Shown: piece by piece, positions 38,871 to 40,183 of the stretch | How the letters are laid out: the number at the start of each line of letters is the position of its first letter | Position numbering within the stretch: position 1 is the stretch's first letter | Program-made: the position numbers and the translations under genes | Assembly: GCF_000426625.1 (NCBI RefSeq) | Contig: NZ_KE384547.1 | Span: 1,789,159-1,853,158 of the forward strand | Source: Psychrilyobacter atlanticus DSM 19335 | GTDB lineage: Bacteria; Fusobacteriota; Fusobacteriia; Fusobacteriales; Fusobacteriaceae | Length of the DNA stretch: 64,000 nt | Direction of reading: 5' to 3' | The notes under the pieces: model-generated | Told to the model about the DNA's origin: nothing | Seen by the model: only the letters and a program-made list of their open reading frames with translations | Databases searched by the model: none

Positions 38871-38905
38871 AAAAAAATAGTAGCTATTTAATTCAAAATA
38901 GCTAC
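38871..38905 (-). terminator. valS attenuator terminator
   Basis: Minus-strand GTAGCTATTT / AAATAGCTAC, six-base loop, then TATTTTTTT, 26 bases before valS. The 5' arm can pair instead with ATAGCTAT (38952-38959), which lies four bases after the leader stop codon. A ribosome at that stop would cover it. Confidence 0.8.
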
Positions 38906-38962
38906 TTTAATCTCTTTATATTATTCAAGGGTTTTATAAAAATTCAAAACCATAGCTATCAC

Positions 38963-39013
38963 CTATATCAATTTGATTAAAATGTGATTAACTTTGACCT
39001 CTACTCTTTTCAT
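38963..39013 (-). CDS. valS leader peptide
   Basis: A 16-residue ORF, MKRVEVKVNHILIKLI, with three Val codons (GTA, GTC, GTT) at positions 4, 6 and 8. GGGAGG lies 10 bases before the ATG. The antiterminator element follows the stop directly, then the terminator. Stalling at Val codons would leave ATAGCTAT free to block the terminator, raising valS expression when tRNA-Val charging is low. Confidence 0.72.
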   Translation of the reverse strand: MKRVEVKVNHILIKLI

Positions 39014-39195
39014 AAATGTATTTCCTCCCTCTAAATTTATTCATAAATGTTACCATTAATTTTAACTTTTGTCAATTTTAAATAGACACCTTTTAACAGT
39101 AGATGACTATATAATTATACTTTAAATTTATTTTTTTTAGTATAAATTTTAAAATCATTTAAAAAATGATATATTATATTATATCTTAAATATAT

Positions 39196-39232: not shown

Positions 39233-40183
39233 ATGAAAAAACTTACAATAATAGACATAGCTAAATTAGCAGGAGTAGGTAAATCTACTGTTTCTAGAGT
39301 TATAAACAATGATAAAAAAGTCAGCCAAGAAACCAAGGAAAGAGTATTAGAAGTTATAAAAGAAAATAATTATAAACCTTCCCAAAGTGCTCAAAATATG
39401 AGATCAAAAAAAAATAAAGTCATAGGAATTATAAATACCCGTCTAGAGTCAAAATCAGAGACAAAAGTAATTAAAAATATATTAAATACACTATACGAAG
39501 ATAATTATGATGCTATTATTTTAGAAAGTTTATTTTCTCAAGAAAAAACAGTAGAACATATTGAGGTATTAAAAAATAAAAATATTGCCGGGATCATAAT
39601 TTTTGCTATAAGTACTCTAGAATATAATTTTTTAAAGAAATTAAAAATACCAATTATCATGGTAGCGAAAAAAGTAGACGGTTTTACCAGTATTGCCTAT
39701 GATGATTATGGGGCAATAGAATCTATATTAAACTACCTCATTAAAAATAGCTATAAAAATATAGCTTATATAGGAGTGGATAATAAGGATATCACTACAG
39801 GATTTCAACGATACTCTGCTTATCGGGATTATACAATCAAATATAATAAAGAAAACATCTCTTATTTTGGTGATTTTTCATATAATAGCGGATATAACTT
39901 AGCAAAACAATTATTTTTAGAAGAAAAACAAGTAGATTCTATAGTCTGTGCCAGTGATAGTATAGCACTAGGAGTTAAAAAATATTTAGATAAACACCAA
40001 ATAAAAGAAGTTTTAGTTACAGGTGTAGGAAATGATCCACTGATCAAATTTTTATACGATGACTATATCTCTATAAGTTTTGGATATGATGAAATAGGAA
40101 ATTTAGCAGGAAAAGCTATATTAGATAAAATAAATAAAAAAGATGTCAAAGATATTATCATAGATGGAAATATAACCTTATAA
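39233..40183 (+). CDS. treR: LacI-family trehalose operon repressor
   Basis: A 316-residue regulator. The HTH LTIIDIAKLAGVGKSTVSRVINN covers residues 3-25 and the periplasmic-binding-like sensor domain about 60-316. The sequence resembles E. coli TreR along its length (RLESKSETK, LESLFSQEKTVEHIEVLKNKNIAGIIIF). It is expected to bind trehalose-6-phosphate. It is followed by treB and treC, whose promoter carries a GGGAACGTTCCC operator like that of E. coli TreR. Confidence 0.9.
   Translation: MKKLTIIDIAKLAGVGKSTVSRVINNDKKVSQETKERVLEVIKENNYKPSQSAQNMRSKKNKVIGIINTRLESKSETKVIKNILNTLYEDNYDAIILESLFSQEKTVEHIEVLKNKNIAGIIIFAISTLEYNFLKKLKIPIIMVAKKVDGFTSIAYDDYGAIESILNYLIKNSYKNIAYIGVDNKDITTGFQRYSAYRDYTIKYNKENISYFGDFSYNSGYNLAKQLFLEEKQVDSIVCASDSIALGVKKYLDKHQIKEVLVTGVGNDPLIKFLYDDYISISFGYDEIGNLAGKAILDKINKKDVKDIIIDGNITL

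Follow-up and report, generated by a model that had tools for sequence, protein, structure and literature searches.

How is the valyl-tRNA synthetase gene, valS, controlled in Psychrilyobacter? T-boxes often fill such roles in Firmicutes. The accessible portion of PMC2494555 describes T-box control of valS in the Firmicutes, and it gives no T-box in two genomes of Fusobacteria/Thermotogae. We consider here the 387 bases of intergenic DNA upstream of valS in Psychrilyobacter atlanticus, within a window of 64,000 nucleotides (the whole stretch of DNA that was analysed) from a 3.54 Mb genome that is labelled g1 in our comparisons. A sequence-only reading of this DNA proposed that valS is attenuated through a leader peptide with Val codons. 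Our analysis supports that proposal, since three genera have the Val codons, the segment after the leader's stop codon and the terminator in combination. We argue that valS is very probably under a classic ribosome-mediated transcription attenuator, which would make its expression autoregulatory.

The features are collected in Table 1. What is established is which parts there are, in what order they stand, and that they recur in related genera. The leader peptide has 16 codons (ATG AAA AGA GTA GAG GTC AAA GTT AAT CAC ATT TTA ATC AAA TTG ATA TAG), and Val stands at codons 4, 6 and 8 as had been claimed. The Shine-Dalgarno (SD) sequence GGGAGG is found in 6 of 7 Psychrilyobacter leaders, while L091 has GGGGGA. 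TTGACA also occurs upstream of the leaders in L006, L020, L029 and L023. An intrinsic terminator lies between the leader ORF and valS, with an 11-bp stem followed by an A and seven T. In 1.5 kb the scan for terminators picked up 3 candidate sites, where shuffles averaged 0.4. The earlier reading placed ATAGCTAT four bases after the stop, which is not borne out, as the gap is three bases (GTG). It also held that this segment can pair with the terminator 5' arm, and there it was right; the partner is GTAGCTAT, and RNAduplex gives 9 pairs at -9.9 kcal/mol.

Table 1. Features of the valS upstream region, in coordinates of the window.
Feature	Position	Strand	Basis or remark
LacI-family gene, divergent neighbour upstream of valS	39233-40183	plus	
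Promoter-like site TTGACA-17-TAACAT, TG before second hexamer	39047-39075	minus	consensus scan
Shine-Dalgarno GGGAGG of leader ORF	39024-39029	minus	sequence; ends 10 nt before ATG
Leader peptide ORF, MKRVEVKVNHILIKLI then stop	39013-38963	minus	sequence
Val codon 4, GTA	39004-39002	minus	
Val codon 6, GTC	38998-38996	minus	
Val codon 8, GTT	38992-38990	minus	
Region 1, leader segment with Val codons 6 and 8, pairs with region 2	38984-39001	minus	folds
Region 2, directly after stop, includes ATAGCTAT (38959-38952), pairs with region 1 or 3	38946-38962	minus	
Intrinsic terminator (stem 38906-38879)	38906-38871	minus	
Region 3, terminator 5' arm	38896-38906	minus	
Region 4, terminator 3' arm and U tract	38889-38879 and 38877-38871	minus	
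valS, valyl-tRNA synthetase, 882 aa	36197-38845	minus	NCBIfam PRK05729.1, 1246.9 bits (cut-off 704); TIGR00422, 1143.7 bits

The distribution of the leader was examined across the Fusobacteriota. ValRS was matched in 95 of 98 genomes, and the upstream DNA of 90 was covered (G001, G013, G045, G047 and G058 were left out of the 95). A clear Val-run leader with a terminator is found in 12 of these 90 upstream regions, a weak one in a single g11 genome (MLRLVEVRRRLKTI and a terminator), and none in the other 77. All 7 Psychrilyobacter genomes covered have it (one further genome is outside the count), as do 3 of 3 genomes of genus g9 (MLENRSVTVVVEQTS, MLKNRSVTVVVEQTS and MPKNRVVKVVVKQTS) and 2 of 2 of genus g8 (MIKFLAVVKVVKNNILFSK and MIEFLAVVKVVKNNILFLK). 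Within the 7 Psychrilyobacter genomes the reading frame is always kept and the three Val codons are invariant, with synonymous GAG/GAA and AAA/AAG changes. The g9 and g8 leader ORFs align with each other and have in-frame length differences of 3 and 9 nt. Conservation of the Val codons with the alternative stem had been singled out as the point on which the proposal hung, and on this point the comparison left the proposal standing. The codons recur with the terminator in g1, g9 and g8, and the stems vary and still pair. By eye, AGCTAT in the terminator arm is preceded in g1 by a T, which pairs with A; g9 and g8 have C or A-shifted forms there that keep the pairing. The stem between regions 1 and 2 has, again by eye, a G-C in g9 where g8 has an A-U.

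In most Fusobacteriaceae of the leaderless group valS is closely behind a GTPase gene and lon; Pfam MMR_HSR1 and Lon_C were found at one such neighbourhood (L012). The g9 leader sits between the GTPase gene and valS. METVEVTEEQ in g14 (L010) was considered as a leader and rejected: these residues end the product of the GTPase-like gene upstream, and no terminator was found there. A control set of 80 ValRS loci from many phyla gave three matches. Two are Fusobacteriaceae already counted (L092 and L094), and the third, in a planctomycete, is probably chance.

A ValRS tree was built from 34 sequences (30 of the 90 covered genomes and four named records) with Leptotrichia taken as outside. In it g8 and g11 are the earliest branches, followed by g9 with g14, by g1 and by the leaderless clade. 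The leader label changes 3 times on this tree versus 9.5 times in shuffles. This suggests that the valS leader is an old trait, with one gain and two losses, and that it was lost in the clade with most Fusobacteriaceae; the tree is a fit to this history and no proof of it.

The proposed mechanism follows the classic scheme. RNA polymerase would transcribe the leader while a ribosome translates the peptide. When charged tRNA-Val is scarce, because valine or ValRS is short, the ribosome would stall at codon 4, 6 or 8 and cover region 1. Region 2 could then pair with region 3 while region 4 is still missing from the RNA, which would pre-empt the terminator and let valS be transcribed. When the Val codons are read fast the ribosome would reach the stop and cover region 2, regions 3 and 4 would pair, and transcription would end. 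Without translation regions 1 and 2 would pair, and the terminator should form as well. Leader translation, stalling, antitermination and the response to valine are steps that we infer; the state-dependent folding is computed.

The predicted minimum free energy fold of the full leader joins the stretch of Val codons 6 and 8 to the post-stop segment and has the terminator next to this stem. If region 4 is absent from the RNA, the post-stop segment is predicted to pair with the terminator 5' arm instead. Ribosome states were modelled with a footprint that extends to the first base of the A site plus 12, and with RNA up to the terminator loop. For the window, 2:3 pairing in this nascent RNA has a computed probability of 0.77 when the ribosome is at Val codon 4, 0.83 at codon 6 and 0.90 at codon 8; when the ribosome is at the stop or absent, the value is 0.0. 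Across g1, g9 and g8 it is 0.77-0.98 at a Val codon and at most 0.05 at the stop or without a ribosome. In full-length RNA at equilibrium the terminator wins in nearly all ribosome states (P 0.97-0.99 in the window), the exception being g8 with the ribosome at the last Val codon (P 0.2). Control would therefore have to be kinetic and act during transcription. The 1:2 pairing is beyond chance in g8 (matched by 0 and 5 of 1000 shuffles) and g11 (17 of 1000) only; in g1 it was matched by 186 and 219 of 1000, and in g9 by 205 and 287.

One can imagine a scenario where the terminator is real and controlled, but by an RNA-binding protein, by ValRS itself or by an undescribed tRNA-sensing RNA, and the Val codons are incidental. 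The stems alone would permit this, and synthetase autoregulation by RNA binding exists: E. coli ThrRS autoregulates its own expression, according to the portion of PMC2965389 available. However, the Val codons turn up in three genera, and where leader ORFs differ in length they do so in frame. The run residue also tracks the downstream gene elsewhere in the same genome, with N before asnA, M before metN and W before trpE and trpS. No leader family reached the Rfam gathering score in the window or at loci L002, L007, L020 and L023. We therefore regard control by another factor as unlikely, and keep ribosome-mediated attenuation as the preferred reading.

It is less likely still that ORF and terminator arose by chance or have nothing to do with each other, as with a spurious ORF next to a terminator that serves an upstream unit. 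A-T-rich DNA is full of short ORFs and T runs. The window leader has just three Val codons, and its run score of 2.63 is a value that shuffled regions also reach. However, none of the 3000 shuffles made per genus for g1, g9 and g8 from the region before the terminator had an SD-led ORF with an equal Val run (SD cut-off 5 of 6, and 4 of 6 for g9). The test has no power in g11, where the leader has two Val only and the run was equalled in 239 of 3000. A second test asked how often the 22 nt directly behind the stop pair as well with the terminator arm when the spacer is shuffled. This happened in 16, 11 and 22 of 3000 shuffles for g1, g9 and g8; g11 fails, at 400 of 3000. Without the position constraint, using the whole spacer, the 2:3 pairing was matched in 27, 15, 41 and 309 of 1000 (g1, g9, g8 and g11), so the pairing in the window is only modestly unusual by this measure, and this is a point for chance. 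Joined by Fisher's method the tests give 1e-8 for the Val run and 2.5e-5 for the 2:3 pairing, figures that overstate independence because the genera share ancestry. The LacI-family neighbour is divergent, so there is no upstream gene that needs a terminator. With the recurrence across genera added, this reading is already largely refuted.

Just as improbable is a leader peptide that works as a small protein or by nascent-chain arrest of the drug-sensing type, rather than as a sensor of Val-tRNA supply. Drug-sensing leader peptides do exist, for example the hflX uORF mentioned in the part of PMC8632094 that we could draw on, but the peptides here differ between genera apart from Val (compare MKRVEVKVNHILIKLI, MPKNRVVKVVVKQTS and MIKFLAVVKVVKNNILFSK) and the target is the synthetase for Val. 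T-box control of valS was rejected, as the Rfam search of the window found no family at the valS leader, T-box (RF00230) included. The sole Rfam match within the window is a purine riboswitch (RF00167, 63325-63422, minus strand, 66.7 bits).

The choice of Val codon deserves a comment. GTC makes up 6.9% of Val codons in the ORFs scanned, yet it is used once or twice per leader in all four genera. Either tRNA supply or the pairing of GUC with GAC of region 2 could account for this. Codon rarity alone is not the rule for regulatory codons, as stated in the part of PMC1183508 at hand.

The valS leader is apparently one of a set of leader-peptide attenuators in its own genome, judging from the DNA. 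Cognate leaders precede thrS, tyrS, trpS, trpE, trpX, asnA, metN, ilvB and asd. A function-blind scan of 2.05 Mb of this genome covered 975 upstream regions of at least 90 nt, of which 232 have a terminator, and 35 of these 232 have an SD-led short ORF before it. Eight regions reach a run score of at least 4.5 (shuffle mean 0.1), 12 reach at least 3.4 (shuffle mean 1.05) and 18 reach at least 2.6 (shuffle mean 3.05). In 7 of the 12 top-run regions the run fits the downstream gene: LLLLLLVLL for ilvB, NNNNN for asnA, WWW for trpS, TTTT for thrS, TTIITLT for asd, MMMM for metN (the best NCBIfam match, below its cut-off) and WWW for trpE (below its cut-off, a partial protein). Two more precede transport proteins, HHHHH before an SBP_bac_3 protein and YYYYYY before an AgcS symporter, and the remaining three (C2:789771, 1997125 and 528151) show no evident fit. 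The trpX leader, with WW (TrpX itself is below its cut-off), scores below the 3.4 set, like valS. Contig C2, beyond the window, carries the terminator-bearing leader ORFs with Asn, Met, Leu/Val, Thr, Trp, His and Tyr runs that lie before asnA, metN, ilvB, asd, trpE, trpX and the two transport-protein genes.

Synthetase genes were examined in this genome and three relatives, and tyrS, trpS and thrS in 15 more; two loci of G051 (L226 and L238) were left out of the counts. Before tyrS, 6 of 16 readable genomes have a leader with a Tyr run (YYYYY in the own genome; also G042, G041, G054, G028 and G029), and the rest have none. Trp leaders precede trpS in 3 of 16 (WWW in the own genome; WIHWW in G042 and G054), again with none in the rest. 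For thrS, Thr runs are found in 3 of 19 (TTTTDT in the own genome; G042; and G054, where no terminator is above the cut-off), with a weak case in G041 and none in the rest. By eye, no leaders were seen among SD-led short ORFs before ileS, leuS, metS, serS, proS, hisS or pheS in at most 4 genomes each, a soft negative because some gene starts are miscalled (e.g. leuS at L182). The leader check covered these seven genes, valS, thrS, tyrS and trpS, and asnS was covered via the T-box only. No Rfam leader family was found at the searched loci of the valS, thrS, tyrS and trpS leaders. The own genome's only T-box match (L001 1501-1674, contig C3) lies upstream of a 72-aa ORF and asnS, and at 73 bits it is below the 93-bit cut-off. 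TGTATCT is tempting as a shared motif of the thrS, tyrS and trpS leaders; it occurs in 1 of the 12 best-scoring spacers and was dropped.

The ilvBN and ilvGMEDA leaders of E. coli carry Val, Leu and Ile codons. They resemble the valS leader in that Val-type codons would be sensed through a leader peptide, but they control biosynthesis operons whereas the Psychrilyobacter leader precedes valS. Both operons are among the leader-controlled operons that the part of PMC1183508 at hand lists. Other synthetase operons are known to be attenuated: pheST in gamma-proteobacteria and trpS and leuS in Streptomyces (PMC1262725), hisS-like genes with His leaders in bacilli (PMC2965389), and cysS in Rhodobacterales (PMC8632094, whose genome set includes Fusobacteria), each taken from the portion of the source available. 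All share with valS an SD-led leader ORF with cognate codons, a terminator before the gene and an alternative pairing. The differences are the target, valS, and the phylum, Fusobacteriota. The Firmicutes valS T-box acts on the same gene and ultimately on the same signal, tRNA-Val charging, but there is none at Psychrilyobacter valS, where charging would be sensed via the ribosome. The literature searched holds no report of leader-peptide control of valS or of Fusobacteriota leader peptides, and "Fusobacter" does not occur in the text of PMC2965389; the 2010 survey of Lopatovskaya et al. could hold such a case. As far as we have seen, then, this is a known mechanism for which both the target and the phylum are new. 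It would bring valS into the group of leader-peptide-controlled genes and place classic attenuation in the Fusobacteriota, and names could be given to a set of short ORFs that lack annotation in these genomes.

We think it fairly likely that early Fusobacteriaceae ran much of their amino-acid metabolism, valS, thrS, tyrS and trpS too, by leader-peptide attenuators that did the job of the Firmicutes T-box. Psychrilyobacter would have kept the set, in which the Asn, Met and possibly His- and Tyr-uptake leaders are unusual, and the clade with most Fusobacteriaceae would have lost most of it. In one genome here a T-box-like element at asnS is found together with leader peptides for valS, thrS, tyrS and trpS, which makes a lineage exchange of T-boxes for leader peptides testable by comparison. 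In genus g5 a tyrS leader, MFNKNN[IV]FITSSYYYCN, is present with a terminator (L220 in G029 and L222 in G028). This implies that leader control was not wholly lost there, even though g5 valS has no leader. The ilvB attenuator of the own genome (C2:1971747-1973456) has a terminator, GGCAGCTATAATTATAGCTGCT, and an upstream element, GGTAGCTA, that resemble those of g9 valS, and on this likeness the two attenuators might be related copies.
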